Of a stretch of DNA of 45,809 bases, positions 174 through 18,803 are shown in pieces. Position 1 is the first letter of the stretch. Each line of letters opens with the position of its first letter. A program made the position numbers and the translations under genes. The stretch is from an uncultured Oscillospiraceae bacterium. Lineage in GTDB: Bacteria > Bacillota > Clostridia > Oscillospirales > Oscillospiraceae. The notes beneath the pieces are model-generated. The model was not told the origin of the DNA, did not search any database, and saw nothing but the letters and a program-made list of their open reading frames with translations. Location of the stretch: the NCBI GenBank assembly GCA_944385445.1, contig CALWXF010000017.1, positions 1 through 45,809 of the forward strand. The letters are read 5' to 3'.

Positions 174-1391
174 TCATCCGTGCAGCTCCCCCACTGCCTG
201 AGACGGGTGGGCCAGATCCTCCAGGCCCACCCAAGCGGAATGGGCCAGCAGCGCAGCGCTCAAAGGCAAGGCCGCATCGTCGGTGCGAAAGCTCTCATTG
301 TGCCAACAGGGGTTGAAACAGTTGGGAAAGCCAGAGCCCACCCAGTAGAAGAAGGACGGGATGTGCTGCCCCAAAACAGCAAAGTCCTCCGACCCCATGT
401 CCGGTGCAGGGGTCACAATGTGCGCCCGGTCCACCAGCGCTGTGGCCGCCTCCATCGCCAGGCGAGTCATCCGGGGAGAATTGATGGTAGGAGGAACACC
501 GGGCTGAAAGGCCACCGATGCCGTGCAGCCCAGGGCACCAGCCACGGCCTGGGTGATGTCCTGAATGCGCTGCTGGGCATATGCCTGGGTGTCCTGGGAG
601 AGGAAGCGGATGCTCCCGGTCATAGTCAGGGTATCGGGAACAAAGTTGTCGGGCGTACCAGCGTGGATGGAAAGGACGGAACAGACCAGGCTGTCCAAGG
701 GGTCGGTGTTGCGGCTGACCACCGTCTGGAGGGCATTGACGATCCCGGCACCTGCCACAATGACATCTGCGCACTTGTGGGGGGAGCCTCCGTGGCCGGA
801 ACGGCCGTGGAGGGTCAGTGTAAAGTGGCTTTTCCCCGCCATGATGGCGCCTTCCCGGACGGCAATGGTCCCGGCAGGCAGCTCAGGCCGATTGTGCAGG
901 CCGAAGAGGCGCTGGGGCACCTGGGGAAGCCGCTCCAGCAGGCCGTGCTCCACCAGGGCCTGTGCGCCCTGGGTGATCTCCTCCGCAGGTTGAAAGAGAA
1001 AGACCACGGTGCCGGGCAACTGCTGTCGGCGTTGGGACAACAGGATGGCCGCTCCATATAGGGCCGCTGTGTGGAAATCGTGGCCACAGCCGTGCATGAC
1101 GCCAGGCGTGAGGGACATGACGCCCGGGTGGGTAGCCTCCTGCTGGGGGATAGCGTCGATATCCGCCCGCAGGGCCACAGTGCCGCCGGGAAGGGCTCCG
1201 TGGAGCACCGCCACAACTCCACTTTCCATGCCCAGATCCACCAACTCCAGGCCCAGCTCCGTCAGCCGCTGCCTCAGTACCCCCGTGGTGCGGTACTCCT
1301 GAAAGCTCAGCTCAGGGTGACGGTGCAAGTCGTCCTTCAACTCCTGAAGGGTATGGGATATTTCATGGGCCTGAGAGAGAAAATGGTTCAT
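174..1391 (-). CDS. M20-family amidohydrolase (aminoacylase/carbamoylase type)
   Basis: A 405-residue zinc hydrolase of the M20D aminoacylase type, which cleaves N-acyl or N-carbamoyl amino acids. Visible motifs are RADIDA (about 75-80), the metal-binding MHGCGHDFH (99-107), PAEE (135-138) with the general-base glutamate, and HN at 166-167. The ATG at 1391 is preceded by GGAAAGGA at good spacing; the open frame extends 80 codons further upstream but without a ribosome site. It lies downstream of hyuA on the same strand, separated by a terminator. Hydantoinase and M20 carbamoylase often act in sequence (ring opening, then decarbamoylation), so a role in the purine/hydantoin pathway is inferred. 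A general aminoacylase is the alternative. Confidence 0.85.
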   Translation of the reverse strand: MNHFLSQAHEISHTLQELKDDLHRHPELSFQEYRTTGVLRQRLTELGLELVDLGMESGVVAVLHGALPGGTVALRADIDAIPQQEATHPGVMSLTPGVMHGCGHDFHTAALYGAAILLSQRRQQLPGTVVFLFQPAEEITQGAQALVEHGLLERLPQVPQRLFGLHNRPELPAGTIAVREGAIMAGKSHFTLTLHGRSGHGGSPHKCADVIVAGAGIVNALQTVVSRNTDPLDSLVCSVLSIHAGTPDNFVPDTLTMTGSIRFLSQDTQAYAQQRIQDITQAVAGALGCTASVAFQPGVPPTINSPRMTRLAMEAATALVDRAHIVTPAPDMGSEDFAVLGQHIPSFFYWVGSGFPNCFNPCWHNESFRTDDAALPLSAALLAHSAWVGLEDLAHPSQAVGELHG

Positions 1392-1480
1392 AGGATCGCT
1401 TCCTTTCCGTAACTGAGGGCCCCTCCATGCAGAGGGTGCCGTAAGGTGTGGGGAATTGTCCAGGCCAGAGCCTGCCCCCA

Positions 1481-1520
1481 AAGAGAAAACTGCTGCGGCC
1501 AATCCCAGCCGCAGCAGTTT
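1481..1520 (-). terminator. Intrinsic terminator after hyuA
   Basis: A perfect 13-bp stem (1487-1499 with 1508-1520) with an 8-base loop is followed on the minus strand by TTTTCTCTT. It lies 5 bases after the hyuA stop, so transcription into the M20 gene is probably reduced, or that gene has its own promoter. Confidence 0.75.
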
Positions 1521-1525
1521 GATGC

Positions 1526-2914
1526 TTATTCCACCAGGATGCTCTGACCCCGCTTGAGGTATTGGCCTGCGCCCTTCTGGCCCAGAAACTTCTGCTTTTC
1601 CACGATGACACGGCCATGGGACAACACGCAATCAATGGAGCCGCACAGCTGCATCCCCTCGTAGCAGGTGTAGTCTGCGGCGGAATGGAGGTCGCTGTGG
1701 GTCAGGGTGTGGGTGCCGTTGGGGTCGAAGATGACCACATCTCCATCCGAGCCAGGCTGCAAGATTCCCTTTTTAGGATACAGCCCGTACATTTTGCTGG
1801 GGTTTGCACACAGCAGACGCACCAGGTCGCAGATGCTCAGACGGCCCTGAGCCACGCCGTAGGTGTACATCACAGCCAGGCGCTCCTCTACGCCGGGAGC
1901 TCCGTTGGGACAGGCGGTAAAATCCCCCAGCCCCGCCTGCTTCTCCACGGCAAAGCGGAACGGGCAGTGGTCGGTAGCCACCACGTCGATGCTGCCGTCC
2001 TGCAGCCCGGCCCACAGGGCCTCGTTGTCCTGCTGGGTGCGCAGCGGCGGGGACATAATGGCCTTGAGGCCCTCCTGGGGATCTGCATACGCCTGCTCCG
2101 TAAGGACCAGGTACTGGGGACACGTCTCCACTCCCAGCCCCTTCTGGTGCCGTTGCCGGGCGGCGCACACCTCCCGCAGTCCCTCCTGGCTAGACAGATG
2201 CACAATGTAGAGAGGAGCGTCTCCAGCCATGGCCGCCAGGTGGATCATACGGTTGACCGCTTCCGCCTCACAGCGTGCCGGACGGCTCCGGGCGTGGTAA
2301 ATGGGCTGACCCAATCCCTGCTGTCGATACCAGCTGCGGAGATAGTTGATGACCCCGTCGTTTTCACAGTGGACCGGGATGACAATGCCATCTTTCTTGG
2401 CCTGCTGGAGCACACGCAGCAGCTCCTCATCCCGGAGCTTTCCGTCGTAGGTCATGTACACCTTGCAACTGGTGATGCCCTCACGCTGGGCCAATTCCCC
2501 CATTTCCCTCAGGATGGTGTCATCCACATGCTGGATCACGCCGTGGAAGCCGTAGTCGATGACGGCCTTTCCATCTGCCAGGCGGTGATACTCCTCCACC
2601 TGGTGCCACAGACTGCACCCGGCAGGGCCAAAGGCCATGTGATCGACAATGGTGGTGGTCCCGCCGCAGGCCGCTGCCACGGTGCCGGTATAAAAGTCGT
2701 CCACCGCCCGGTAAGGGCCTGCCTGGAGGTCCATGTGGGTGTGTACATCCACAGCGCCGGGGAGGACATACTTTCCGGCGGCATCCAGAACCACCGCCCC
2801 CGGGGCGTGCAGCTGGGTGCCGATGGCCTTGACCACCCCATCCTGGATGAGGAGATCGCCGTGGACTACGTCGCTCTCACTGACGATTTGACCGTTGCGA
2901 ATCAGAGTATACAT
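1526..2914 (-). CDS. hyuA: Hydantoinase/dihydropyrimidinase-family cyclic amidohydrolase
   Basis: A 462-residue cyclic amidohydrolase that opens cyclic ureides (hydantoins, dihydropyrimidines). The binuclear metal set is complete: H58 and H60 (HTH), K151 (the carbamylated lysine, in SCKVYMTY), H182 (VHCEN), H239 (VHLSS) and D315 (ATDHCP), close to D-hydantoinase numbering. The start at 2914 has GAGGAG 8 bases upstream; an upstream start 8 codons earlier is possible but lacks a site. A good promoter lies at 3032-3060. In E. coli the homologous hyuA sits in the ygeWXY-yqeA cluster, and the same partners occur here, so ring opening of a purine-derived cyclic ureide is the likely job. The true substrate cannot be read from sequence. 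Confidence 0.9.
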   Translation of the reverse strand: MYTLIRNGQIVSESDVVHGDLLIQDGVVKAIGTQLHAPGAVVLDAAGKYVLPGAVDVHTHMDLQAGPYRAVDDFYTGTVAAACGGTTTIVDHMAFGPAGCSLWHQVEEYHRLADGKAVIDYGFHGVIQHVDDTILREMGELAQREGITSCKVYMTYDGKLRDEELLRVLQQAKKDGIVIPVHCENDGVINYLRSWYRQQGLGQPIYHARSRPARCEAEAVNRMIHLAAMAGDAPLYIVHLSSQEGLREVCAARQRHQKGLGVETCPQYLVLTEQAYADPQEGLKAIMSPPLRTQQDNEALWAGLQDGSIDVVATDHCPFRFAVEKQAGLGDFTACPNGAPGVEERLAVMYTYGVAQGRLSICDLVRLLCANPSKMYGLYPKKGILQPGSDGDVVIFDPNGTHTLTHSDLHSAADYTCYEGMQLCGSIDCVLSHGRVIVEKQKFLGQKGAGQYLKRGQSILVE

Positions 2915-3031
2915 AGATGATTCTCCTCGTAGACACATGGGACGGGCTGGGGCTGGACGGGACCCATTCAGACAGGCACCCAGATCCCCCGGCCCGGTTT
3001 GAAGAAAATTTTTTAGCTCAAACTAATTGTT

Positions 3032-3060
3032 ATACTACGCCAAGAACGCTGTGTTGTAAA
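3032..3060 (-). promoter_or_regulatory. Sigma-A promoter of hyuA
   Basis: On the minus strand TTTACA (3055-3060) and TAGTAT (3032-3037) are 17 bases apart. This gives hyuA an untranslated leader of roughly 110 bases, in which I see no known riboswitch. Confidence 0.6.
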
Positions 3061-3116
3061 TACTATCGCAAGAGAAAAGAACCGCTGTGATATGTGGATT
3101 ATGCACAAAACATGCT

Positions 3117-3155
3117 GAAAAAAAACGGCGCCGTCCAGGAAGGACGACGCCGTTT
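3117..3155 (-). terminator. Intrinsic terminator after pyrI
   Basis: A 14-bp stem with one mismatch (3123-3136 with 3142-3155) is followed on the minus strand by eight T residues. It ends the pyrBI transcript 13 bases after the pyrI stop and so separates pyrBI from hyuA. Confidence 0.85.
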
Positions 3156-3168
3156 GGCCATATGGGAA

Positions 3169-3588
3169 TTATCTGTGATACTCCGTATCGCAGTACGCAC
3201 AGCAGTAGGTGCGCTGCTCCGGGTTGGTCAGGACAAACTCAGACTTCAGGTGAGGCTCGGCGGTGGTGATGCACCGGGGGTTTTTGCAGGTGAGCACGTT
3301 GACCAGCTTGGAGGGCAGGGACAGGTGCCGTTTCTCGCTGCGCTCCCCGTTGCGGATGATGTCCACCGTGATGCCGGGGTCCACATAGCCCAGCACATCC
3401 AGATTCAGGTCAATGATCTCATCGATCTTGATGATGTCCTTGCGTCCCAGCTTGGAGGACTTGGCGTTTTTGATGATGGCTACGGAGCAATCCAGCTTGT
3501 GCAGGCCCAGCAGCTGGTAAATTTCCATGCTGGCCCCGGCCTTGATGTGGTCCAGAACAATGCCGTTTTGAATGCTGTCGATTTTCAT
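3169..3588 (-). CDS. pyrI: Aspartate carbamoyltransferase regulatory chain
   Basis: A 139-residue allosteric subunit of aspartate transcarbamoylase, which binds nucleotides and joins catalytic trimers. The zinc site is visible as C101, C106, C130 and C133, with the family's CxxxxC then CxxC spacing. The start has GGAGGAGAG upstream, and the gene follows pyrB after 14 bases, so the two are one operon ending at the terminator at 3117-3155. Length and motifs are normal. The pairing implies feedback-controlled pyrimidine synthesis; its position inside a purine-catabolism island is unusual, because the other pyr genes are not nearby. Confidence 0.95.
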   Translation of the reverse strand: MKIDSIQNGIVLDHIKAGASMEIYQLLGLHKLDCSVAIIKNAKSSKLGRKDIIKIDEIIDLNLDVLGYVDPGITVDIIRNGERSEKRHLSLPSKLVNVLTCKNPRCITTAEPHLKSEFVLTNPEQRTYCCAYCDTEYHR

Positions 3589-3602
3589 GTTCTCTCCTCC
3601 AT

Positions 3603-4520
3603 TTACAGATGAATGCCCAGCATATCCAAAATGAGGGCCATGCGAATATACTTGCCGTACGCCACCTGCTGGAAGTAACGGGCACGGGGGTCCTGGTCCA
3701 CCTCAGGGGTGATCTCGTTGACACGGGGAAGGGGATGCATGATGACCAGGGAGGACTTGGCGTGGATCAGCTTGTCGGGGTCCACGATGTAGGTGTCCTT
3801 CAGGCGGATATAGTCGGCCTCGTTAAAGAAGCGCTCCCGCTGCACCCGGGTGACATAGAGGATGTCCAGCTGGGGCATGGCCTCCTCCAGGCTCTCCGTC
3901 TGCACATAGCTGATGCCGGCAGGCTCCAGCACGTTGGTGATGATGTAGTCGGGGATGCGCAGCTCGGGGGGAGAGATGAACACCATCTTCACGCCCTGAT
4001 AGCGGCTCAGAGCAGCCACCAGAGAGTGGACGGTACGGCCGAACTTCAAATCACCGCACAGACCGATGGTGAAGTTCTCCAGAGAGCCCCGCTCCCGGTG
4101 AATGGTGAGCAGGTCGGTGAGGGTCTGAGTGGGGTGGTTGTGACCGCCGTCGCCGGCGTTGATCACAGGGACCTGGGCCGTCTGAATGGCGGCGTAGGGG
4201 GCACCCTCCTTGGGGTGTCTCATGGCGATGATATCGGCATAGCAGCTGACGGTGCGCACGGTGTCTCCCACGCTCTCACCCTTTGCCGTGGAGCTGCTGT
4301 TTGCCTCGGAGAAGCCCAGGACGTTTCCGCCCAGCTCCATCATGGCGGACTCAAAGCTCAGGCGGGTACGGGTGGAGGGCTCGAAGAAGAGGGTGGCCAG
4401 CTTTTTGTAACGGCAGGCATCCCGGTACTTTTCCGGGTTTTGCATGATGTCCTCGGCAGTGGCAATCAGCCGATCAATATCCTGGGTGGACAAATCGGTA
4501 ATGTTGAGTAGATGCTGCAT
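3603..4520 (-). CDS. pyrB: Aspartate carbamoyltransferase catalytic chain
   Basis: A 305-residue catalytic chain that makes N-carbamoyl-aspartate from carbamoyl phosphate and aspartate. The carbamoyl-phosphate motif STRTR is at 49-53, and HPTQTLTDL and the HPLPR motif follow in the usual order. The ATG at 4520 has GAGGTG at 8 bases. A promoter (TGGACC-N17-TACACT, 4571-4599) lies just upstream. The gene competes with, and is clearly distinct from, the knotted carbamoyltransferase YgeW in the same window. Either it draws carbamoyl phosphate released by purine breakdown into pyrimidine synthesis, or the location is accidental. Confidence 0.95.
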
Positions 4521-4570
4521 GTGTCTTCACCTCATGTCGTGTATTTACATTAAAAAGAATCATTGGGAAA

Positions 4571-4599: not shown

Positions 4600-4787
4600 G
4601 CGTTTTTCCGAAAAGAAGTGGTGTTGTCCCCCGCCGAAGTGGGCCTACCGGGAACAAACGGTGGGAAAACAGCGGATACCTGGGGCTGTGGCGTAAGGAC
4701 ATCCACCCCAAACACAGGGTCTTGTGTCCCTTTGGAAAACAAAAAATAATTTTAACAAAAATTTTTATGAGCCAAAAATTATTTTTG

Positions 4788-4816: not shown

Positions 4817-4846
4817 GGAGATACAGACAGAAATCGAACAATATGA

Positions 4847-4929: not shown

Positions 4930-5007
4930 AAATATGGCGTTTCTGTGCAGCATCCGGCAATGAGATTGAAAAACGGGAAAAGAATTGAAGAAAAGGAGAG
5001 AGCCCTG

Positions 5008-6327
5008 GTGAAACAACAAGTGAAATCCAAGGCCGTGGAGCAGGATAGTGAGTTCTCACTGTGCGCTGTTCCTGAAAGTGAGCGAAAATCCTACATCAGC
5101 CTGACCATTGTGTGGACCGGATTCATCTTTGCCATCATCAGCCTGATGGCAGGCGGAACGCTTGCCCTGGGCCTGAGCTTCCGGGAGATCCTGATTGCCA
5201 GTTTTGTGGGAAATATCTTTTTGTGTGCCATTGCGGTGGCCGTCAGCGTCATTGCCAGCCGCACCGGTTTGACCTTTGCGCTGCTGACCCGCTATAGCTT
5301 CGGCTCCAGCGGTTCCAGAATCGCCTCCCTGTTTGTACCCGTGGTCAACGTAGGGTGGTATACCATCCAATCTGCATCCTACGGGCACTTTGTGGCCAGT
5401 ATTTTTGGCTTCGGCGACGTGGGCGAGGCCATCTGCATGGTGGCCAGCGCCGCTTTGATGGGCATCTTCGCCTTCTACGGGGTGAAGGCCATCGCCATTT
5501 TGGGCTATGTGGCCATCCCTGCCATCATTTTCCTCACCGTGGCCACCACCATTCGCTCCGTGGGCGTGATGGGTTCCCTGGAGGCCCTGATGGCTTACCG
5601 TCCCTCCGCCCCCATCTCTCTGGCTGCTGGCATCACCGTGGTAATCGGGGCGTGGATCTTGTCCACGGCCACCTGTCTGGCGGACATCATGCGGTATGCC
5701 AAATCCACCAAGTCGGCAGTGGCGGCAGCCCTCACCGGACTGCTGGGCGGCAACATTCTCATGCTCATCTGCGGTGCAATCGCCACCATTGCCATGGACG
5801 AGTATGATCTGACCGCCATTTTGCTGGGCTTCGGTCTGGTGGTCCCCTCTCTGATTCTGATGACCACCAACATTTTCACCACCAATGCCGCCAATCTGTA
5901 TTCCACTGGCCTGAACCTGGCCAACTCCTTTAAAATCGGTCGGACCAAGATGATGCTGATCCTCATCGGAATCTCTTCGGTGGCCACCCTGCTCAAGCCC
6001 CACGAGGCGGATTTCTACTACACCTTCCTCAACGCACTGGGCAATGTGATTCCTCCCCTGGCGGGCATCATTCTGGCTGATTACTTTATCGTCAACAAGG
6101 GACGCTATCTGGCTCTGGAGAAGAGCAAGTTCATCCGTTGGAATCCTGTGCCCTGGATCAGCTGGCTGGTCAGCGTGATCATCGTGTTTGCACTGGTGTC
6201 TCTGCTGCCCGCCGTGGTGGCCAATATTCCCGCTCCCTTTATCGGAATCGTGCTGGGCGCTGTATTCCACACGGTACTGATGAAGGTCACAGGTATTCGT
6301 GTCAATCTCAAAGAGACGGAGGGATGA
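5008..6327 (+). CDS. NCS1-family (cytosine/purine/hydantoin) permease
   Basis: A 439-residue integral membrane transporter of the NCS1 family (relatives: CodB for cytosine, PucI for allantoin, Mhp1 for hydantoin). About twelve hydrophobic segments are visible, beginning at SYISLTIVWTGFIFAI, and the first is preceded by a short charged tail as in CodB. I chose the GTG at 5008 because AAGGAGAG lies 8 bases upstream; the frame stays open back to 4843 without a ribosome site and through the structured leader. A small membrane protein gene follows after 4 bases. Context makes a purine, cytosine, hydantoin or allantoin substrate likely; known uric-acid permeases are mostly of the unrelated NCS2 family. 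Confidence 0.88.
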   Translation: MKQQVKSKAVEQDSEFSLCAVPESERKSYISLTIVWTGFIFAIISLMAGGTLALGLSFREILIASFVGNIFLCAIAVAVSVIASRTGLTFALLTRYSFGSSGSRIASLFVPVVNVGWYTIQSASYGHFVASIFGFGDVGEAICMVASAALMGIFAFYGVKAIAILGYVAIPAIIFLTVATTIRSVGVMGSLEALMAYRPSAPISLAAGITVVIGAWILSTATCLADIMRYAKSTKSAVAAALTGLLGGNILMLICGAIATIAMDEYDLTAILLGFGLVVPSLILMTTNIFTTNAANLYSTGLNLANSFKIGRTKMMLILIGISSVATLLKPHEADFYYTFLNALGNVIPPLAGIILADYFIVNKGRYLALEKSKFIRWNPVPWISWLVSVIIVFALVSLLPAVVANIPAPFIGIVLGAVFHTVLMKVTGIRVNLKETEG

Positions 6328-6331: not shown

Positions 6332-6514
6332 ATGAAGAAGAGTAAGAATTTGACGCTCCACAAAACAGCGGCCCTGGTTGGCACCGTGATCATGGCCATC
6401 GGCTCTTTCATGGCCTGTCTGAGCACCAATGTGGTGGCAACCCAGGTAGGGAATGTCCTGCTGGTGGCGAGTATCCTCGTGATGTTCTACGGATATTCTG
6501 CCTGGCAACCCTGA
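6332..6514 (+). CDS. Small two-helix membrane protein of unknown function
   Basis: A 60-residue protein with a lysine-rich start and two hydrophobic helices (about 10-27 and 38-55). The ATG at 6332 has ACGGAGGG upstream and lies 4 bases after the permease stop, so it is surely co-translated with it. I do not recognise a family. By position it may be an accessory subunit or stability factor of the permease; that is inference. Confidence 0.7.
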   Translation: MKKSKNLTLHKTAALVGTVIMAIGSFMACLSTNVVATQVGNVLLVASILVMFYGYSAWQP

Positions 6515-6564: not shown

Positions 6565-7218
6565 TCAGTCTGCCTTGCTGGCATCCATGTAACTGTATAG
6601 GGTGTACTTGCTGATGTTGAATTGGCGGCTGATCTTATCCCCGCTCTTGGTGATGAGAAAGGCACCTGCGTTGTTGAGAAACTGGATGGCCTTGATCTTG
6701 TCCTCTTTGTTCATCATGGCTACCGGCTTGCCCACCAGCTGAATGGACTGGTTGATCAGCTCATCCAGCAGATCGTTGACGTTGAGGGGGATGTTTTCCG
6801 GCTGGCTCTGAGTGTCCCCCTCTGGGGTGGTGACAGATACCAGAGAGCGGATGGAACCCTCAATGGCCAGCAGGGCGGTGATGTCATGGTTGATGGAGAA
6901 AATAGCAGCGACCTCCCCCTCTTCGTCCCGGATGTACATGGTGCTGCTTTTCAGGATACGGCCGTCATGGGTCCGTGTGAGGTAGCACAGCTTGTCCTCC
7001 AGGGTCTCGGGGTTGTGCTTCATCGCCTCCAATACGATGTGGCTGGGGCCGTCCCCCACCTTGCGGCTACTAACATGGCCGTTTTCGATGAAAATGATGC
7101 TGTTGTCCAGCTGACCATGCCGCAAATCGTGGATGACCACCTCGCAGTTGTTGCCGAATTGCTGGCTGACACCATGGGCGATCTGGCGAAGAGTTTGTAA
7201 TGTGGCACGACTAAGCAA
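6565..7218 (-). CDS. YheO-type PAS/helix-turn-helix transcriptional regulator
   Basis: A 217-residue DNA-binding regulator. The N-terminal two thirds match the YheO-like PAS sensor domain (motif NCEVVIHDL near 22-30, later a KSSTMYIRDEEG strand), and the last 60 residues match the helix-turn-helix usually paired with it (GAFLITKSGDKISRQFNISKYTLYSYMD). I place the start at a TTG at 7218: AAAGGAG lies 8 bases before it and the family homology begins there; the 35 extra upstream codons have no site. It is transcribed away from ssnA out of a shared 167-base region, the classic position for the local regulator. A purine or purine-derived ligand for the PAS domain is inferred. Confidence 0.85.
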   Translation of the reverse strand: MLSRATLQTLRQIAHGVSQQFGNNCEVVIHDLRHGQLDNSIIFIENGHVSSRKVGDGPSHIVLEAMKHNPETLEDKLCYLTRTHDGRILKSSTMYIRDEEGEVAAIFSINHDITALLAIEGSIRSLVSVTTPEGDTQSQPENIPLNVNDLLDELINQSIQLVGKPVAMMNKEDKIKAIQFLNNAGAFLITKSGDKISRQFNISKYTLYSYMDASKAD

Positions 7219-10573: not shown

Positions 10574-10637
10574 AAGCATGTAAGCTAAAAAAGATTTTGG
10601 CAGTATTAAAATAATTTAGTTTTAGGAGGCGGACCAA

Positions 10638-11843
10638 ATGGACGCGATCAAATGGGTGGCCAACCGGATGCCCAAAACCGAGGACACACAGCTGTCTGTG
10701 ATGTCCCTGGACCATGTCAAGAAAGCGCGTGCGTTTCACCAGAGTTTCCCCCAATATAATCAGACTCCCCTGGCTCAGCTGGATGGCATGGCCAAAGAGT
10801 TGGGTCTGGGCGGCTTGTTTGTCAAGGACGAGAGCTACCGGTTCGGCCTGAATGCCTTTAAGGTGCTGGGCGGTTCCTTTGCCATGGCCAACTACATCGC
10901 TGAGGCGCTGGGCCGGGACGTGTCGGAGATGACCTATGACTATCTCACCAGCCAGCAGCTGAAGGATGAGTTTGGACAGGCCACCTTCTTCACCGCCACC
11001 GATGGCAACCATGGCCGTGGCGTGGCTTGGGCCGCCAATAAGCTGGGTCAGAAGTCCGTGGTGCTCATGCCCAAGGGGAGCACCAAGACCCGCTTTGACA
11101 ACATCGCCAAGGAGGGCGCCAAAGTCACCATCGAGGAAGTCAACTACGACGAGTGCGTGCGCCGTGCCAACGCCATGGCCGAGCAGACCGAGCATGGTGT
11201 GATGGTGCAGGACACTGCCTGGGATGGCTACGAGAAGATCCCCGCCTGGATCATGCAGGGCTACGGGACCATGGCCAGCGAGGCCAGCGAGCAGCTGCAG
11301 GCCGCCGGCGTCAAGCGTCCCACCCACATCTTTGTGCAGGCGGGCGTAGGCAGCCTGGCCGGCGCCGTCCAGGGGTATTTTGCCAACCTGTACCCGGACT
11401 GCTGCCCCACCACGGTGATTATGGAGGCCCAGGTGGCCGACTGTCTGTACCGCAGCGCTGCGGCAGCGGACGGAGATATCCGCTTTGCCACCGGCGATTT
11501 GCAGACCATCATGGCCGGCCTGGCCTGCGGCGAGCCCAACACCATCAGCTTTGACATCCTCAAGAACCACAGCTCCTTCTTTGTCTCCTGCCCGGACTGG
11601 GTGGCAGCCAAGGGTATGCGCATGCTGGGCGCTCCCGTCAAGGGGGACCCCCAGGTGGTGTCCGGCGAGTCCGGCGCTGTGGGCATGGGCCTGATCGCCA
11701 CCCTGATGACCGATCCCGCCTATCAGGAGCTAAGGGAGGCCATCGGCCTGGACGAGAACAGCGTGGTGCTGATGTTCTCCACCGAGGGCGATACCGATCC
11801 CGAGAACTATCGTGCCATCGTCTGGGAAGGCAAGCAGGTCTGA
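10638..11843 (+). CDS. ygeX: Diaminopropionate ammonia-lyase
   Basis: A 401-residue PLP enzyme that converts 2,3-diaminopropionate to pyruvate and two ammonia via 2-aminoacrylate. The Schiff-base lysine is K75 in FGLNAFKVLGG; TDGNHGRG (121-128, phosphate/cofactor contact and a candidate catalytic aspartate) and QDTAWDGYEKIP (191-202, second candidate aspartate) match the E. coli enzyme. Length equals the family norm. AGGAGGCGGACCAA precedes the ATG. It is first in an operon with ygeY, ygeW, arcC and ridA. In the purine pathway it is the carbon exit to central metabolism. Confidence 0.94.
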   Translation: MDAIKWVANRMPKTEDTQLSVMSLDHVKKARAFHQSFPQYNQTPLAQLDGMAKELGLGGLFVKDESYRFGLNAFKVLGGSFAMANYIAEALGRDVSEMTYDYLTSQQLKDEFGQATFFTATDGNHGRGVAWAANKLGQKSVVLMPKGSTKTRFDNIAKEGAKVTIEEVNYDECVRRANAMAEQTEHGVMVQDTAWDGYEKIPAWIMQGYGTMASEASEQLQAAGVKRPTHIFVQAGVGSLAGAVQGYFANLYPDCCPTTVIMEAQVADCLYRSAAAADGDIRFATGDLQTIMAGLACGEPNTISFDILKNHSSFFVSCPDWVAAKGMRMLGAPVKGDPQVVSGESGAVGMGLIATLMTDPAYQELREAIGLDENSVVLMFSTEGDTDPENYRAIVWEGKQV

Positions 11844-11895: not shown

Positions 11896-13287
11896 ATGGA
11901 TTTTGAGCAGATCAAAAAGGCAGCGGAGGGCTACCGTGCCGACATGACCAGCTTCCTGCGTGCCATGATCTCCCACCCCAGCGAGAGCTGCGAGGAGAAG
12001 GAAGTGGTGGCCTGCATCAAGGCCGAGATGGAGAAGCTGAACTTCGACAAGGTCGAGGTGGACGGCCTGGGCAACGTCATCGGTTGGATGGGCCAGGGCG
12101 ATAAGATCATCGCCATCGACTCCCACATCGACACCGTGGGCGTGGGCAACATCGACAACTGGACCCATGACCCCTACCAGGGCTATGAGGACGACCAGGT
12201 CATCTATGGCCGCGGCGGCTCCGACCAGGAGGGCGGCATGGCTTCCGCGGTGTACGGCGCCAAGATCATGAAGGACATGGGCCTGATTCCCCAGGGCTAC
12301 AAGATCATGGTTGTGGGCTCCGTCCAGGAAGAGGACTGCGACGGCATGTGCTGGCAGTACATCGTCAACAAGTACTTCCCCGCCAACGGCATCCAGAAGG
12401 AGCAGGTGGAGTTCGTCATCTCCACCGAGCCCACCGACGGCGGTATCTACCGTGGCCACCGTGGCCGCATGGAGATCCGTGTGGACGTCAAGGGCGTCTC
12501 CTGCCATGGCTCCGCCCCCGAGCGTGGTGACAACGCCATTTACAAGATGGCTGACATTCTCCAGGACGTGCGTGCCCTCAACGAGAACCCCGCCGATGAC
12601 TCCGTGGAGATCAAGGGCCTGGTCAAGATGCTGGACCCCAAGTACAATCCCGACCACTACGAGGACGCCCGCTTCCTGGGCCGCGGCACCTGCACCACCT
12701 CTCAGATCTTCTATACCTCTCCCAGCCGCTGCGCTGTGGCTGACTCCTGCTCCATCTCCATTGACCGCCGCATGACCGCCGGCGAGACCTGGGACTCCTG
12801 CCTGCAGGAGATCCGTGACCTGCCCAGCGTCAAGAAGTACGGCGACGACGTGAAGGTCTCCATGTACATGTATGACCGTCCCTCCTGGACCGGCGAGGTC
12901 TACGAGACCGAGTGCTACTTCCCCACCTGGATCAACAAGGAAAACGCCGCCCACGTCCAGGCTCTGGTGGACGCCCACCACGCCCTGTTCGGGGACAAGC
13001 GTGTGGGTCCCGAGGGCGCCATGCACCTGCGCAACCGTCCGCTCACCGACAAGTGGACCTTCTCCACCAACGGCGTGGCCATTCAGGGCCGCTACGGCAT
13101 CCCCTGCGTGGGCTTCGGCCCCGGCGCTGAGAGCCAGGCTCACGCCCCCAACGAGATCACCTGGAAGGACGATCTGGTGGCCTGCGCCGCTCTGTACGCC
13201 GCCGTTCCCGGCCTGTACAAGGAAGAGAACAAGACCGCCGACGTCTCTCAGTTCCGTGCCGGCAAGACCGACAACGACATCCGCTGA
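11896..13287 (+). CDS. ygeY: YgeY-type M20 hydrolase (selenium-metabolism-associated)
   Basis: A 463-residue metallohydrolase of the M20 family, YgeY subgroup. Metal motifs: SHIDTVGVG (76-84, H77 and D79), [10 protein letters not shown] (D110) and QEED (144-147, with E145 as probable base). The ATG follows AAGGAGGAACTTACC. It sits between ygeX and ygeW, the same order as in E. coli read backwards. The family is known by genomic association with SsnA and selenium hydroxylases; in the pathway it probably cleaves an amide or ureido bond to free diaminopropionate. It is a different subgroup from the M20 hydrolase at 174-1391. Confidence 0.92.
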
Positions 13288-13347: not shown

Positions 13348-14544
13348 ATGGATAAGACTTTGCAGATGTATATTGACAAGCTCAATGCCCTGAACTTCAA
13401 GGAGATGTACGAGGGCGACTTCTTCCTGACCTGGGACAAGACCGACGATGAGCTGGAGGCCGTCTTCACCGTGGCCGACGCCCTGCGCTACATGCGTGAG
13501 AACAACATCTCCACCAAGATCTTCGAGTCCGGTCTGGGCATTTCCCTGTTCCGTGACAACTCCACCCGTACCCGTTTCTCCTTCGCCTCCGCCTGCAACC
13601 TGCTGGGCCTGGAGGTCCAGGACCTGGACGAGGGCAAGAGCCAGATCGCTCACGGCGAGACTGTGCGTGAGACTGCCAACATGATCTCCTTCATGGCTGA
13701 TGTCATCGGCATCCGTGACGACATGTACATCGGCAAGGGCCACACCTACATGAAAGAGGTGGTGGAGGCCGTTACCCAGGGCCACGAGGACGGCGTGCTG
13801 GAGCAGAAGCCCACTCTGGTGAACCTGCAGTGCGACATCGACCACCCCACCCAGTGCATGGCTGATATGCTGCACATCATCCACGAGTTCGGTGGCGTGG
13901 AGAACCTGAAGGGCAAGAAGGTCGCCATGACCTGGGCCTACTCCCCCAGCTATGGCAAGCCCCTGAGCGTGCCCCAGGGCGTCATCGGTCTGATGACCCG
14001 CTTCGGCATGGACGTGGTTCTGGCCCATCCCGAGGGCTATGAGGTCATGCCCGAGGTGGAGGAAGTGGCCAAGAAGAACGCCGAAGCTTCCGGCGGCACC
14101 TTCCGCCGCACCAACTCCATGGCCGATGCCTTCAAGGACGCCGACATCGTCTACCCCAAGAGCTGGGCTCCCTTCGCCGCCATGGAGAAGCGCACCGAGC
14201 TGTACGGCAACGGCGATACCGACGGCATCAAGGCTCTGGAGAAGGAGCTGCTGGCTCAGAACGCCGAGCACAAGGATTGGTGCTGCACCGAGGAGCTGAT
14301 GGCCACCACCAAGGACGGAAAGGCCCTGTATCTGCACTGCCTGCCCGCCGACATCAACGATGTCTCCTGTGTGGACGGCGAGGTGGAGGCCTCTGTGTTT
14401 GACCGCTATCGCACCCCCCTGTACAAGGAGGCCAGCTACAAGCCCTATGTGATTGCCGCCATGATCCTGCTGGCTAAGGTGAAGGATCCTGCCGAGGCCC
14501 TCAAGGCTCTGGAGGAGCGGGGCACTGCTCGCAAGTTCCGCTGA
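13348..14544 (+). CDS. ygeW: Knotted carbamoyltransferase YgeW
   Basis: A 398-residue member of the aspartate/ornithine transcarbamoylase superfamily, YgeW branch. The carbamoyl-phosphate loop STRTR is at 72-76, HPTQCMADM is the second phosphate/carbamoyl contact, and HCLPAD lies near the C-terminus. Length and sequence separate it from PyrB at 3603-4520. An AAAGGAG site precedes the ATG at 13348. With ArcC immediately downstream, it most likely works in the phosphorolytic direction, transferring a carbamoyl group from a ureido intermediate to phosphate. The natural substrate was unknown for long; a ureido compound from purine breakdown fits the context. Confidence 0.93.
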   Translation: MDKTLQMYIDKLNALNFKEMYEGDFFLTWDKTDDELEAVFTVADALRYMRENNISTKIFESGLGISLFRDNSTRTRFSFASACNLLGLEVQDLDEGKSQIAHGETVRETANMISFMADVIGIRDDMYIGKGHTYMKEVVEAVTQGHEDGVLEQKPTLVNLQCDIDHPTQCMADMLHIIHEFGGVENLKGKKVAMTWAYSPSYGKPLSVPQGVIGLMTRFGMDVVLAHPEGYEVMPEVEEVAKKNAEASGGTFRRTNSMADAFKDADIVYPKSWAPFAAMEKRTELYGNGDTDGIKALEKELLAQNAEHKDWCCTEELMATTKDGKALYLHCLPADINDVSCVDGEVEASVFDRYRTPLYKEASYKPYVIAAMILLAKVKDPAEALKALEERGTARKFR

Positions 14545-14562
14545 GTTTTCGCTGCATCCCAG

Positions 14563-14617: not shown

Positions 14618-14667
14618 GCTGCCAGCTGACATGTTTCATTGAACCAACATGATTTTTGGAGGTAATT

Positions 14668-15612
14668 ATGGGTAAGCGTATTGTCGTTGCCCTGGGGGGC
14701 AATGCTCTAGGAAACAATCTGCCCGAGCAGATGCTTGCCGTGAAGGAGACTGCCCGTGCCATTGCGGATCTGATTGAAGGGGGCAACGAGGTCATCGTGG
14801 CCCACGGAAACGGTCCCCAGGTGGGCATGATTCAAAAGGCCATGGCGGAGCTCACCCGCTCCGACCCTGAGAAGTACATCCCCTGTCCCTTGTCGGTGTG
14901 TGTGGCCATGAGCCAGGGGTACATCGGATACGACCTGCAAAATGCACTCCGGGAGGAGTTGCTGGACCGGGGCATCGACAAGGGTGTGGCCACCGTGCTC
15001 ACCCAGGTGGAGGTGGACCCCGAGGACCCCGCATTCAACAACCCCAACAAGCCCATCGGCGCCTTTATGACCAAGGAAGAGGCGGATAAGCTGGTGGCAG
15101 AGCGGGGCTATCAGGTGATGGAGGACGCTGGCAGAGGGTACCGCCGTGTGGTGGCCTCTCCCCGCCCCCAGAACGTGGTGGAGCTGGGGACCATCCGGGC
15201 CCTGGTGGACACCGACCATGTGGTGGTGGCCTGCGGCGGCGGCGGCATTCCCGTATTCGCCACAGAGGGCAACCACCTCAAGGGCGCCGCAGCCGTGATC
15301 GACAAGGACTTTGCCAGCGAGAAGCTGGCGGAGCTGTTGGATGCGGACTATCTCATCATCCTCACCGCCGTGGAGAAGGCCGCCATCAACTTCGGCAAGC
15401 CCAACCAGAAATGGCTGGATACCATCTCGGTGGCAGAGGCCGAGCAGTACTGCCAGGAGGGCCACTTCGCCCCCGGCTCCATGCTGCCCAAGGTGCAGGC
15501 TGCCATGACGTTTGCCCAGTCTAAGCCCGGCCGTCGTGCCCTGATCACCCTGCTGGAAAAGGCACGGGATGGCATTGAGGGCCGCACCGGAACCGTGATC
15601 GTCAACTCTTGA
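14668..15612 (+). CDS. arcC: Carbamate kinase
   Basis: A 314-residue kinase (YqeA/ArcC family) that converts carbamoyl phosphate plus ADP to ATP, ammonia and CO2. The N-terminal VALGGNALG (7-15), HGNGPQVG (about 48-55) and a glycine-rich CGGGGIPV stretch are typical. The ATG at 14668 follows TGGAGGT at 4-5 bases; an upstream start 4 codons earlier has none. It lies between ygeW and ridA and is the energy-conserving step of the island. No arginine deiminase or ornithine carbamoyltransferase is nearby, which argues against arginine fermentation. Confidence 0.95.
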   Translation: MGKRIVVALGGNALGNNLPEQMLAVKETARAIADLIEGGNEVIVAHGNGPQVGMIQKAMAELTRSDPEKYIPCPLSVCVAMSQGYIGYDLQNALREELLDRGIDKGVATVLTQVEVDPEDPAFNNPNKPIGAFMTKEEADKLVAERGYQVMEDAGRGYRRVVASPRPQNVVELGTIRALVDTDHVVVACGGGGIPVFATEGNHLKGAAAVIDKDFASEKLAELLDADYLIILTAVEKAAINFGKPNQKWLDTISVAEAEQYCQEGHFAPGSMLPKVQAAMTFAQSKPGRRALITLLEKARDGIEGRTGTVIVNS

Positions 15613-15648
15613 CCCACGGCATCAACATTGAAAAAGGAAGTGCTGCAT

Positions 15649-16026
15649 ATGAATAAGGCAATTGCCACTGTGAACGCTCCTGGAGCCATTGGCCCCTACT
15701 CCCAGGCCGTGCAGGCCGGGAACACCGTCTATGTCTCCGGCCAGCTGCCCATCGACCCCGCCACCGGCGCCTTTGCCGCCGAGGACATCGCCGGACAGAC
15801 TGAGCAGAGCCTGAAGAACATCGGCGCCATCCTGGCTGAGGCCGGGTATGGCTTTGAGGATGTGGTCAAGACCACCGTGCTCCTGGCGGACATCAACGAT
15901 TTTGCCGCCATGAACGAGGTGTACGGCCGGTACTTCACCGGCACCTGCCCCGCCCGTGCCGCCTTTGCAGTCAAGGATCTGCCCAAGGGCGCCCGTGTGG
16001 AGATCGAGGCCATTGCCGTAAAGTAA
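15649..16026 (+). CDS. ridA: RidA-family 2-aminoacrylate deaminase
   Basis: A 125-residue protein of the Rid/YER057c/UK114 family, which hydrolyses reactive enamines and imines such as 2-aminoacrylate. The motifs IGPYSQAV (near 12-19), SGQLPIDP, and CPARAAFAV with the substrate-binding arginine are present. The ATG at 15649 has AAAAGGAAG upstream; a TTG 7 codons earlier is less likely. It is last in the ygeX operon, 36 bases after arcC, and a terminator follows. Co-transcription with ygeX, which makes 2-aminoacrylate, suggests a dedicated role in finishing that reaction and protecting PLP enzymes. Confidence 0.93.
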
Positions 16027-16061
16027 TCGCCTCAGACAACTTGATTTAGGCCGACAGAGGA

Positions 16062-16102
16062 GAATCACCTGCGCCCGTGTGTTGGCCAGGTGATTCCTTT
16101 TT
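16062..16102 (+). terminator. Intrinsic terminator after ridA
   Basis: A 10-bp stem (16062-16071 with 16087-16096) is followed by TTTTT (16098-16102). It lies 35 bases after the ridA stop and 145 bases before the hydroxylase gene. Confidence 0.8.
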
Positions 16103-16109
16103 ACCACCC

Positions 16110-16222
16110 GGAGGAGATGACAGCAGGACTCCTGTCTCCTCCACAGCAGTAGCACAAGGACAGCGGCTGAGCCCCATGGCCGGGTATGGCGTTGGACGGC
16201 GCCATGCTCTGCCACAGCATGG
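16110..16222 (+). promoter_or_regulatory. Hairpin-rich leader of the hydroxylase gene
   Basis: Two further hairpins follow the ridA terminator: GGAGGAGA (16110-16117) with TCTCCTCC (16135-16142), and CCATGCT (16202-16208) with AGCATGG (16216-16222). No convincing promoter is seen between the terminator and the gene, so expression may depend on read-through. A molybdenum-cofactor riboswitch could not be recognised by eye. Confidence 0.3.
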
Positions 16223-16247
16223 GAGCAAACACGAAAGGAGCAGTCAT

Positions 16248-18803
16248 ATGTACACGTTGTATGTCAACGGTGTGGAGCACACCACACAGGAAAACAAAAA
16301 ACTGCTGGACTATCTGCGAGAGGACCTGCGCATCACCAGCGCAAAAAATGGCTGCGGTGAAGGGGCCTGCGGGACCTGCACCGTATTGGTGGACGGAAAA
16401 AAGACCAAGGCGTGTATTTTTACCACGGAAAAGCTCAACGGAAAGCACATCACCACCGTGGAAGGGCTAACGGAGCGGGAGCGGGAGGTATATGTCTATG
16501 CCTTCGGACAGACGGGCGCCGTACAGTGCGGCTTCTGCATTCCCGGCATGGTCATCAGCGCCAAGAGCCTGTTGGATGAAAACGTAAACCCCACCCGGGA
16601 GGACGTGAAAAAGGCCATCCGGGGAAATATCTGCCGCTGCACTGGATATGTCAAGATCGAGGAGGCCATTTTGCTGGCGGCCAAGATGTTCCGTGAGAAT
16701 TTGCCTGTACCCCACGATGACAGCGAGGCCCGCATCGGGCACCACTTCCCCCGGGTGGATGTGGCGGAAAAGGTGTTGGGCACCGGCCTGTTCGTGGACG
16801 ATATCAAGGTGCCCGGCATGATCTATGCCAAGGCGCTGCGCTCCAAGTATCCCCGGGCCCGGGTGGAAAAAATTGACCTGACCCGTGCCCTGGCCCACCC
16901 GGACGTGGTGAAGATTCTCACCGCCAAGGATGTACCCTTCAATAAGACCGGACACATCATCCCGGACTGGGACGTGCTCATCGCCGAGGGGGATTGTACC
17001 CGGTATGTGGGAGACGCCATTGTGCTGGTGGCCACCCAGCACCAGGAGACCCTGGATGAAGTGCTGGCTCTGGTGGATGTGACCTACACCGAGCTGGAGC
17101 CCATCACCGACCCCCAGCAGGCCATGCAGCCGGATGCCCCCAAGCTCCATGAAAAAGGAAACATCCTGGCCGAAGAGCATTTGAAGCGGGGCAACGCCGA
17201 TGAGGTCATCGCCAACGCCCCCTTTGTGGTCACAAACCACTACTCCACCCCCATGACTGACCACGCCTTCATGGAGCCGGAATGCGCCATTGGCATCCCC
17301 GACGGCGAGGGCGGCCTGCTGATGTACACCGCCAGCCAATCGGTGTACGATGAGCAGAGGGAAATTTCCCGGATGCTGTGTCTGGAGCCCGAGAAAGTGC
17401 GCTGCCAGACCAAGCTGGTGGGCGGCGGCTTTGGCGGCAAGGAGGACATGAGTGTCCAGCACCATGCGGCCCTGATGGCCTGGGCCACGGGCCGGCCGGT
17501 GAAGGTGAAGTTCAGCCGCCAGGAGAGCCTGAACATCCACACCAAGCGCCATGCCATGGAGATGGATGTGACCACGGCCTGTGACGAGAAGGGCCGACTG
17601 CTGGCCATGAAGGCCACCCTGATCTCCGACTGCGGCGCCTACGCCAGCCTGGGCGGGCCGGTGCTCCAGCGTGCTTGCACCCACTGCGGCGGCCCCTACA
17701 ATTTCCAGAACATTGACATCACCGGCATCTGTGTATACACCAACAACGTCCCCGGCGGCGCCTTCCGTGGCTTTGGCGTGACCCAGAGCTGCTTTGCCGC
17801 AGAGCTGAACCTGGACATGCTGGCGGAGAAGGTGGGGATCAGCCCCTGGGAGATTCGCTATCTCAACGCCATCCGCCCCGGTCAGGTGCTGCCCAACGGC
17901 CAGATCGCCAGCCCGGATACCGGCTACGCCGAATGTCTGGAGGCGGTGAAGGAGGCCTATGAGAGCAGCCCCTATGCGGGCATCGCCGGGTGCATGAAAA
18001 ACAGCGGCATTGGCGTGGGACTGCCGGACATCGGCCGCTGTGAGCTGGCCGTGGTGGACGGTGTGGTGCATATCCGCACCAGCGCCGCCTGCATGGGCCA
18101 GGGCGTGGCCACCGTGTGTACCCAGGTGGTCCACGAGGTCAGCGGCGTGACCCCCGACCACATCTTCCACGAGCGGGCAGACACCGCCATCACCCCCAAC
18201 TCCGGCACCTCCACCGCCTCCCGCCAGACCGTCTTCTGCGGAGAGGCCACCCGCCGGGCCGCCGGGCTGCTGGCCCAGGCCCTGGAGGGAAAGACCCTGC
18301 GTGATTTGGAGGGCCAGACCTTCTACGGAGAGTACAGCGGCATCACCGACCGTATGGGCAGCGACAAGCCCAACCCCGTCAGCCATGTGGCCTACGGCTA
18401 TGGCGCCCAGGTGGTCATCATGGACGAGAATAAGCGGGTGGTGAAGGTGGTGGCCGCCCACGATGTGGGCCGAGTGGTCAACCCTGCCGCCTGTGAGGGC
18501 CAGATCGAGGGCGGCGTGGCCATGGGCCTGGGCTTCGCCCTCACCGAGAACTTCAAGATGGAGGGCGGATACGTCAAGAGCAAGTACGGCACCCTGGGCC
18601 TGCTGCGTGCCACCGATGTGCCGCCCATCGAGGTACACCTGGTGGAGAAGGGCACCAGCGATCAGAACACCTTCGGCGCCAAGGGCATCGGAGAGATCTG
18701 CGCGGTGCCCACCGCTCCGGCCGCCGCTCATGCCGCCTACCGGGTGGACGGCAAGTTCCGAACCAAGCTGCCCCTGTGTGACACCTTCTACAAGAAAGCC
18801 TAA
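16248..18803 (+). CDS. xdhD: Selenium-dependent-type xanthine dehydrogenase (fused 2Fe-2S and molybdopterin domains)
   Basis: An 851-residue molybdenum hydroxylase fusing the [2Fe-2S] domains (C36, C41, C44, C56; C94, C97, C129, C131, in CGEGACGTC, QCGFC and CRCTGY) to the molybdopterin subunit. The latter shows GGGFGGKED, GAFRGFGVTQ and the catalytic GAKGIGE near the C-terminus. Architecture and length match the clostridial selenium-dependent xanthine dehydrogenase family and resemble E. coli XdhD; I name it accordingly. The ATG at 16248 has AAAGGAG at 7 bases. The FAD subunit of ordinary xanthine dehydrogenases is missing. Likely reaction: interconversion of purines with xanthine or uric acid. 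The selenium is a labile cofactor ligand, not selenocysteine, so it cannot be seen directly. Confidence 0.9.
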   Translation: MYTLYVNGVEHTTQENKKLLDYLREDLRITSAKNGCGEGACGTCTVLVDGKKTKACIFTTEKLNGKHITTVEGLTEREREVYVYAFGQTGAVQCGFCIPGMVISAKSLLDENVNPTREDVKKAIRGNICRCTGYVKIEEAILLAAKMFRENLPVPHDDSEARIGHHFPRVDVAEKVLGTGLFVDDIKVPGMIYAKALRSKYPRARVEKIDLTRALAHPDVVKILTAKDVPFNKTGHIIPDWDVLIAEGDCTRYVGDAIVLVATQHQETLDEVLALVDVTYTELEPITDPQQAMQPDAPKLHEKGNILAEEHLKRGNADEVIANAPFVVTNHYSTPMTDHAFMEPECAIGIPDGEGGLLMYTASQSVYDEQREISRMLCLEPEKVRCQTKLVGGGFGGKEDMSVQHHAALMAWATGRPVKVKFSRQESLNIHTKRHAMEMDVTTACDEKGRLLAMKATLISDCGAYASLGGPVLQRACTHCGGPYNFQNIDITGICVYTNNVPGGAFRGFGVTQSCFAAELNLDMLAEKVGISPWEIRYLNAIRPGQVLPNGQIASPDTGYAECLEAVKEAYESSPYAGIAGCMKNSGIGVGLPDIGRCELAVVDGVVHIRTSAACMGQGVATVCTQVVHEVSGVTPDHIFHERADTAITPNSGTSTASRQTVFCGEATRRAAGLLAQALEGKTLRDLEGQTFYGEYSGITDRMGSDKPNPVSHVAYGYGAQVVIMDENKRVVKVVAAHDVGRVVNPAACEGQIEGGVAMGLGFALTENFKMEGGYVKSKYGTLGLLRATDVPPIEVHLVEKGTSDQNTFGAKGIGEICAVPTAPAAAHAAYRVDGKFRTKLPLCDTFYKKA

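Follow-up and report, generated by a model that had tools for sequence, protein, structure and literature searches.

We analysed a stretch of 45,809 nucleotides from an uncultured Oscillospiraceae bacterium (contig CALWXF010000017.1 of GenBank assembly GCA_944385445.1), which is called the window below. At positions 174-18,803 it carries a predicted cluster for the reductive anaerobic degradation of uric acid, in which ygfK (8752..10446, plus strand) codes for an unusually short protein. This short YgfK lacks the flavin adenine dinucleotide (FAD)/NAD(P)H module (NAD(P)H: reduced nicotinamide adenine dinucleotide (phosphate)) of its full-length relatives. Our overall explanation, which we consider probable, is that the urate cluster was acquired and that its short YgfK is fed with electrons by ferredoxin. 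The novelty lies in this recurrent form of YgfK without the NAD(P)H module, in the foreign-type island that carries it and in a candidate regulon. The window is the entire contig (C17 of the host assembly), and the sequence to the left of base 1 is unseen; the host genome comprises 2,152,896 bases on 37 contigs and is 91.14% complete.

The pathway was reconstituted by Li et al. in 2025, using enzymes of E. coli and C. difficile (PMC12507026). In this scheme, a xanthine dehydrogenase family enzyme (XDH) converts urate by reduction to yanthine (2,8-dioxopurine), which is dearomatised to dihydro-yanthine by YgfK or UacX. The product of SsnA is ureidomethyl-hydantoin, that of HyuA is 2,3-diureidopropionate. 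One ureido group is then removed by YgeW, with carbamoyl phosphate, or by UacY, which gives a mono-ureido acid; YgeY removes the other group, and the resulting diaminopropionate is converted by YgeX to pyruvate (PMC12507026). A commentary notes that it is not yet settled in which order the ureido groups are cleaved and which physiological electron donor XdhAC uses (PMC12990295). The original prediction, made from the letters of the window, had proposed that urate is broken down to 2,3-diaminopropionate, pyruvate and ammonia, with ATP gained via carbamoyl phosphate. This agrees with the characterised reductive pathway (PMC12507026, PMC12990295); the proposal is right in outline, but already published. 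It also regarded individual steps from ring opening to diaminopropionate as open, which no longer applies, as these steps were published in 2025 (PMC12507026), and it missed the lost module of YgfK, the signs of an acquired segment and the difference from the cluster of the host's own genus.

The window contains the marker SsnA with an XDH homologue nearby, and HyuA, YgeW, carbamate kinase, YgeY and YgeX all score above their cut-offs. We regard the locus as a nearly self-contained cluster of this type, the individual steps being predicted from published work on relatives. Urate would be taken up probably via a permease of the NCS1 family, whose substrate is predicted, and a Se/Mo enzyme would reduce it to yanthine. 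The short YgfK would dearomatise yanthine, and SsnA and HyuA would open the two rings. YgeW and ArcC would convert one ureido group to carbamoyl phosphate and ATP, YgeY would remove the other, and YgeX would cleave diaminopropionate to pyruvate and ammonia. A YheO-type regulator probably controls the cluster via an A/T-rich palindrome to which it is predicted to bind.

The short YgfK and its electron supply

The YgfK of the window consists of 564 residues, compared with about 1000 as usual. The family profile TIGR03315 (1012 positions) matches it only at positions 1-414 and 884-1012. The protein is thus made up of a flavin mononucleotide (FMN) domain (residues ~1-423) and a C-terminal domain for two [4Fe-4S] clusters, in which all eight cysteines (441-485) are kept. 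In an alignment to E. coli YgfK, a single long gap removes the Fe-S region of domain II of dihydropyrimidine dehydrogenase (DPD) type together with the FAD/NAD(P)H domain, and a short linker joins the remaining parts. A Pfam scan covered 20 full-length proteins and, except for L042 and L043, the 15 short ones; Pyr_redox_2 (PF07992) and Fer4_20 were found in 20/20 and 0/13 cases, respectively, and both are absent from the YgfK of the window. In PMC12507026, PF07992 is given as the FAD/NAD(P)H domain of YgfK. The accessible portions of that paper describe no YgfK without a FAD domain, which is not to claim that none is in print.

A protein of this kind could be a decaying, non-functional remnant, in which case the pathway would be broken or would proceed via another reductase. 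Its score of 702.5 bits is below the family cut-off of 835.3, a large internal segment is gone, and the nearest sister species (plural) lack an SsnA above the cut-off. On the other hand, the reading frame is intact, and all 33 aligned proteins have Lys81, Cys219, Lys242, Lys302 and seven ferredoxin cysteines out of eight (Asn147 in 31). The eighth cysteine, C441, occurs in 20/20 full-length proteins and, in an alignment of short proteins only, in 12/13, L048 having a histidine; the value of 7/13 in the mixed alignment is due to gaps. Between the window and L042, its nearest YgfK relative, nonsynonymous divergence is below synonymous divergence (dN 0.28, dS 0.81); the short gene thus appears to be maintained. 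The same form occurs in several genomes whose records are titled with a strain, the tree described below requires four or more changes of state, and no alternative yanthine reductase was found in the genome by a search with PF01180. A remnant is, in view of these findings, very unlikely.

It has also to be considered that the short YgfK is the UacX of C. difficile, i.e. a yanthine reductase of the ferredoxin type that has already been described. In Metaclostridioides mangenotii (L049), which we take to belong to the same family as C. difficile, a short ygfK lies between ssnA and a pair of NCS2 and hyuA genes, with a UacY-like Amidohydro_3 gene upstream. This arrangement fits the neighbouring UniProt numbers of C. 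difficile UacY, UacX and HyuA, and UacX likewise has no FAD domain (PMC12507026). However, UacX was assigned by PF01180 (PMC12507026), to which short YgfKs have matches of at most 14.4 bits, in 3/13, against a cut-off of 27 bits. For the YgfK of the window no match to PF01180 was listed up to an E-value of 1. No significant similarity (probability 2.7%) emerged from a profile-profile comparison of the short YgfK with PyrD of the same genome. UacX was not seen in the genome, where PF01180 finds PyrD and one weak match. Six scored short YgfKs besides that of the window match TIGR03315 with 639-877 bits, and six of the seven, including the window, are below its cut-off; family profiles thus set them apart from UacX. 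We consider the identity with UacX doubtful.

If the short YgfK is active, it has to obtain electrons without a module of its own for NAD(P)H. A profile search saw no dedicated FAD partner in the 91%-complete genome; the two strongest matches to the FAD module elsewhere are NfnB, beside NfnA, and GltD, beside GltB. The enzyme might nevertheless depend on NAD(P)H through a separately encoded subunit, in a split like that of PydA1/PydA2 or PreA/PreT, with GltD or NfnB acting in trans. Split PydA and PreAT exist (PMC7332683), and GltD and NfnB possess modules of the required kind and are matched by the YgfK profile in its FAD region. But each of the two adjoins its own partner, and among the 14 other short-form loci, in which not every open reading frame (ORF) was named, no ORF gave NfnB or YgfT from the reference set as its best hit. 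L048, L050 and L051 do hold a FAD subunit, but beside an XdhABC set; L042, L043 and L064 are on short contigs. A subunit supplied in trans is therefore unlikely.

The simplest reading is that the short YgfK would be a ferredoxin-fed yanthine reductase, parallel to PydAc. PydAc, the dihydropyrimidine dehydrogenase of C. chromiireducens, has no FAD domain and uses reduced ferredoxin, not NAD(P)H (PMC7332683). In the short YgfK, electrons would most likely pass straight from a soluble low-potential carrier to the C-terminal ferredoxin-like domain, and then to FMN. The carrier would be reduced ferredoxin, supplied by pyruvate:ferredoxin oxidoreductase (PFOR) or NfnAB, both of which are present in the genome. 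PFOR yields two electrons per pyruvate. As the conversion of urate to diaminopropionate requires a net four-electron reduction (PMC12507026), urate could in this way supply half its own need. If this is true, PFOR oxidises the pyruvate derived from urate and thereby regenerates reduced ferredoxin for the yanthine reductase.

Several points weigh against this reading. Five weaker matches to the FAD module (<53 bits) in the genome were not assigned singly, and as the genome is 91% complete, an orphan partner may be missing. PydAc has two ferredoxin domains (PMC7332683), the short YgfK only the C-terminal one. As the score of the short YgfK is below the equivalog cut-off, its substrate specificity is deduced from context. 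For Glu606 of E. coli XdhD, a residue proposed to promote the formation of yanthine (PMC12507026), a 13-row alignment shows no counterpart in the XDH of the window. In the same alignment, this residue sits in an insertion unique to the E. coli XdhD row, which makes it unusable as a marker. Finally, the XDH gives no sign of a coordinated switch, because the lack of a FAD subunit is usual in loci of Firmicutes. An adjacent FAD subunit is missing in 51 of 53 loci that have XDH and a full-length YgfK, some of them cut by contig ends, and in 9/9 short-form loci with XDH. A coordinated loss of FAD at XDH and YgfK was accordingly rejected.

The XDH of the window (16248..18803, plus strand, start inferred) is composed of the domains Fer2, Fer2_2, Ald_Xan_dh_C and MoCoBD, again without a FAD subunit beside it. 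It scores 1398.1 bits with TIGR03311 (cut-off 830.45), the profile of Se-dependent enzymes, and is predicted to be the urate reductase. On contig C2, SelD (392.6 bits), YqeB (369.3 bits) and YqeC (158.5 bits), all above their cut-offs, lie together within about 7 kb, which fits a selenium-dependent enzyme. Five short-form loci have no XDH in the stretch; four of these genomes have an XDH above the cut-off elsewhere, and G103 (68% complete) has only weaker matches. A second XDH-type enzyme of the host is encoded on contig C6; judged from the ORFs, its neighbours appear to be the FAD and 2Fe-2S subunits.

Recurrence of the short form

Related loci were collected from GTDB genomes queried with three short proteins; the 80 analysed are the best 80 of at least 576 confirmed relatives, and short forms are thus enriched among them. 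They comprise 12 short, one intermediate and 67 full-length YgfKs. In these loci and 30 full-length ones from a family survey, the short proteins have 525-588 and the full-length proteins 972-1061 residues; the distribution is bimodal save for the intermediate L113 of Megasphaera (836 residues) and L124 (925 residues), which is cut by a contig end. In the intermediate protein (L113:10001-12508), the match covers DPD domain II and the beginning of the FAD domain, and the best profile stretch ends at 632; G307 and G532 have 860-residue frames that match positions 1-632 of the YgfK profile. In a phylum-wide sample of 398 genomes, 49 had a YgfK match at E <= 1e-130. The match was above the cut-off in 43, with open frames of at least 821 residues, and below it in six, with frames of 570-581 residues, the genome of the window being one of them. 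A family sample of 200 genomes gave 56 above the cut-off and short forms in G196 and G103 besides the window; some other family matches below the cut-off look like pieces at contig ends (e.g. G172, G177).

The short form also occurs in strain-titled records, namely Clostridium magnum DSM 2767, Metaclostridioides mangenotii DSM 1289, Veillonella sp. R32, Blautia sp. Marseille-P3087 and Clostridium sp. KNHs205; these records argue against an artefact of assembly. Twelve of the 14 other short-form loci have SsnA; L065 has a HyuA homologue and XDH, and L064, at a contig end, has no other pathway gene. In L105, the short ygfK is directly followed by a frame of 1167 residues (L105:11660-15160) without Pfam match. 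This ORF had been suspected to be PFOR, a candidate that was dropped as no such Pfam match is present.

A YgfK tree was computed from 59 rows (14 short loci, the window, one intermediate, E. coli and 42 hand-picked full-length loci), with the columns of the FAD region removed and L001 and L004, which are the window itself, left out. The window belongs to a clade of ten short proteins (support 98/95), where it stands next to L042 and then L047. A single clade of all 15 short proteins is rejected (p-AU 0.0012). By parsimony the state changes five times between short and full, and the starred branches force at least four changes; long branches (L068, L074, E. coli) make the exact count uncertain. 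As the tree is unrooted, the changes do not separate loss from gain; however, single short forms inside full-length groups (L043 among eight rows, L048 among nine, both starred) favour loss. We tentatively suggest, at somewhat less than even confidence, that the NAD(P)H module was lost several times independently in Firmicutes. Each loss would have made the urate pathway a sink for ferredoxin electrons, partly self-feeding via PFOR, with both reductions proceeding without NAD(P)H.

The cluster, its origin and its candidate regulon

The right edge of the cluster was located by comparison with sister species. Homology to G066, the nearest of these, stops at position 18922, about 70 bases before dac; in G200, G217 and G221 the stop is at 18,929-18,945. 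Beyond it, the DNA from dac to murC is 94% identical to G066 and 86% to G200, G217 and G221. Upstream of dac, the contents of G200, of G221/G217 and of G218 differ from the window, and the sisters compared with each other at the same site also differ, save for the pair G221/G217 and two short matches between G200 and G218. When window positions 1-4900 were compared with five sisters, a pyrB paralogue (65-79% over pieces), a stretch near base 5-83 in two of them and further matches ~35 bases long were found. Within the genus, 10 of 41 genomes have SsnA above the cut-off, among them neither G066 nor G200, G217 or G221; G201 has a piece of SsnA at a contig edge. The nine other SsnA-positive congeners have a differently built cluster with a XanQ-like (NCS2) permease. 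Eight of them have a full-length YgfK; the gene of the remaining one is cut by a contig end. The SsnA of the window is 51-53% identical to that of its genus mates. In a quick SsnA tree, which has long branches, it is paired with a short-form row (SH-aLRT 98), to judge by branch lengths that of L047.

From these comparisons we conclude that the cluster was probably acquired as a foreign-type island. Some observations point the other way. L042, which has the nearest YgfK, lies outside the smallest set that contains the SsnA of the window, and the nearest SsnA by path is that of a Treponema with a full-length YgfK; given these discordant placements, the history is not the same for all the genes. 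The island's left edge coincides with the contig end, and position 18,922 may be an assembly join. At the contig start an inverted repeat (7-49) was noticed, and bases 5-83 match G217 and G221 (81-85%).

According to the ORF list and family profiles, the cluster consists of 14 genes and one ORF of 60 residues. This bears out the genes, order and strands given in the original prediction. Its count of "eleven genes" does not tally, as it named eight components of the set plus NCS1 permease, RidA, M20 hydrolase and YheO-type regulator, i.e. twelve, and it did not report pyrB and pyrI within the same coordinates. Mechanically derived ORFs begin too early for some genes; the starts of the M20 gene (~1391) and of the regulator gene (~7218) were read from the sequence. 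Seven of the eight pathway genes exceed curated NCBIfam cut-offs, YgfK being the exception. The minus-strand block is formed by the gene of a second M20 amidohydrolase of TIGR01891 type (174..1391; 328.6 bits, cut-off 153.75; start inferred), hyuA (1526..2938; TIGR02033, 558 bits, cut-off 393.25), pyrI (3169..3588; NF002063, 190.8 bits, cut-off 171) and pyrB (3603..4520; TIGR00670, 342.4 bits). HyuA is of the D-hydantoinase/dihydropyrimidinase type, its nearest solved structures being D-hydantoinases, and is predicted to hydrolyse ureidomethyl-hydantoin.

The minus-strand block is followed on the plus strand by the gene of the NCS1-family nucleobase permease (4960..6327; PF02133; start inferred) and the small ORF (6332..6514), and on the minus strand by the YheO-type regulator gene (6565..7218; PAS_6 and HTH_22; inferred TTG start). 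The plus-strand series begins with the ring-opening aminohydrolase gene ssnA (7386..8720; NF005540, 641.8 bits, cut-off 444; TIGR03314, 603.9 bits), which is separated from ygfK by 31 bases; the remaining gaps of the series, computed from ORF starts, are 15-215 bases. Downstream of ygfK lie ygeX (10638..11843; 2,3-diaminopropionate ammonia-lyase; TIGR03528, 651.0 bits, cut-off 532.25), ygeY (11896..13287; M20 ureido hydrolase; NF009555, 619.5 bits, cut-off 321) and ygeW (13348..14544; knotted carbamoyltransferase; TIGR03316, 804 bits, cut-off 500). Then follow arcC/yqeA (14668..15612; carbamate kinase; TIGR00746, 383.8 bits, cut-off 358.25; start inferred) and ridA (15649..16026; enamine/imine deaminase; TIGR00004, 177.5 bits, cut-off 106.25; start inferred), and the XDH gene described above closes the series.

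YheO homologues were found in 47 of the 80 related loci by ORF search and in 44 by tblastn. A/T-rich 8-mers are enriched in the intergenic regions that separate divergent YheO and SsnA genes: of 36 such regions, 21 contain AAAAATTT, compared with a maximum of 10 after shuffling. The 8-mers make up the palindrome CTAAAAAATTTTTTAG, which is present, with up to 3 mismatches, in 18/36 regions, whereas 100 dinucleotide shuffles gave 0.83 on average and at most 4; note that its consensus was derived from the same regions, which makes this count partly circular. In a count over whole loci, which is less circular and allowed a second palindrome variant, the 44 YheO-bearing loci have 68 sites, of which 57 lie close to a cluster gene start (20 YheO, 12 YgeX, 11 SsnA, 10 NCS2, 4 others); the sites at YheO and SsnA overlap with the regions that gave the consensus, as others perhaps do too. 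The 36 loci without YheO, some of which are short contigs, have 20 sites, 7 of them near a cluster gene.

In the 45,809 bases of the window, CTAAAAAATTTTTTAG with up to 3 mismatches has two matches, where 0.02 are expected. These are located at 3001..3016, 63 bases before hyuA, and at 10585..10600, 38 bases before ygeX. A variant (4772..4787) directly precedes a promoter-like TTGACT (4788) of the NCS1 gene, and L047 has a similar arrangement before its NCS1 gene. In the gap between YheO and SsnA, the palindrome was found neither in the window nor in L047. The palindrome is likely to be the operator of YheO and is treated here as a candidate, which would tie hyuA to the regulon. A promoter-like site at 10546-10573 suggests that ygeX may have its own promoter. 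Terminator-like hairpins after pyrI (3155-3123) and between hyuA and the M20 gene (1520-1487) imply that pyrBI, hyuA and the M20 gene need not share one transcript. An Rfam search of positions 1-20,000 at E <= 5 gave 5 matches, none at the gathering score.

The permease leaves room for the view that the substrate of the cluster is not urate but another heterocycle (hydantoins, cytosine or a different purine). It is below the CodB cut-off (269.7 of 326), with the cytosine permease 7qoa as nearest relative and Mhp1 weaker. Related clusters often carry an NCS2 permease in its place, NCS1 members include carriers of cytosine and hydantoins, and hyuA and the M20 gene are apart from the ssnA unit. 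On the contrary, SsnA, YgfK, YgeX, YgeY and YgeW constitute the characterised urate set (PMC12507026), a similar NCS1 permease belongs to the same cassette in L047, and the candidate operator links hyuA, NCS1 and ygeX. Another substrate is thus highly improbable. The hydrophobic 60-residue ORF directly 3' of the permease gene is 57% identical over 60 residues to one in L047, likewise after NCS1; it is possibly a small partner of the permease.

PyrB and PyrI are both above their cut-offs and adjacent, with a gap of 14 bases, as in an allosteric aspartate carbamoyltransferase (ATCase), and the nearest solved relatives of this PyrB are ATCases. It is the second PyrB of the genome; the ORF of the other, on contig C1, ends in a cysteine-rich tail that appears PyrI-like by reading of the sequence. 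The PyrI domain occurs in one of 41 genomes of the genus, that of the window. A recurrent association of pyrBI with urate clusters was rejected: PyrI is found in none of the 80 related loci and PyrB in one (L105, a 366-residue ORF). As PyrI is missing there, we hold pyrBI to be a passenger, which in principle might catch carbamoyl phosphate from YgeW. For the M20 protein (174-1391), the nearest solved relatives are YxeP and an ILR1-like protein; homologues are near the urate cluster in just 2/80 loci.

Comparison with known systems

Breakdown of uric acid in the gut bears on gout. The short YgfK separates the catalytic half of the enzyme from the NAD(P)H half. With only an FMN and a ferredoxin domain left, the donor of the second reductive step is testable with one smaller protein. 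Six of seven scored short YgfKs stay below the cut-off of the family, and the Pfam domain that names the family is found in 0/13; surveys of urate degraders based on annotation would thus be prone to overlook them, and family cut-offs may lead to an undercount of urate degraders. The palindromes before hyuA, NCS1 and ygeX constitute a candidate regulon that is directly testable.

The E. coli cluster has the same eight activities and the same end of ammonia-lyase, carbamoyltransferase and carbamate kinase. In contrast to it, the window has no ygfM FAD subunit and its YgfK no FAD/NAD(P)H module. The XDH of the window is of the TIGR03311 type and reaches just 231.6 of the 1101.9 bits of TIGR03313, presumably the type of E. 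coli XdhD. Furthermore, an NCS1 permease stands in place of the E. coli permeases XanQ/UacT, and a YheO-type regulator in place of the sigma54-dependent YgeV.

The UacX/UacY cluster of C. difficile resembles the window in having a yanthine reductase without FAD domain and an XDH without FAD subunit (PMC12507026). UacX was assayed with methyl viologen, and the authors propose ferredoxin as the donor (PMC12507026). Differences are that the window relies on YgeW and ArcC, which yield ATP, instead of the hydrolase UacY, and that its reductase matches the YgfK profile TIGR03315, not PF01180. PydAc shares with the short YgfK the combination of an FMN reductase and a ferredoxin domain without FAD/NAD(P)H domain, in a strict anaerobe (PMC7332683); it belongs to another family and acts on another substrate.

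The order of genes is found again in L047, a locus of the Lachnospiraceae metagenome-assembled genome STD2_98. It reads NCS1 - small ORF - YheO (minus strand) - SsnA - short YgfK - YgeX - YgeY - YgeW - ArcC, as in the window. Identities by tblastn are 56-86% for the seven larger plus-strand genes and 66% for YheO. Unlike the window, L047 has its XDH outside the 21.6-kb locus, elsewhere in its genome, and pyrBI, hyuA and the M20 gene were not found in these 21.6 kb.

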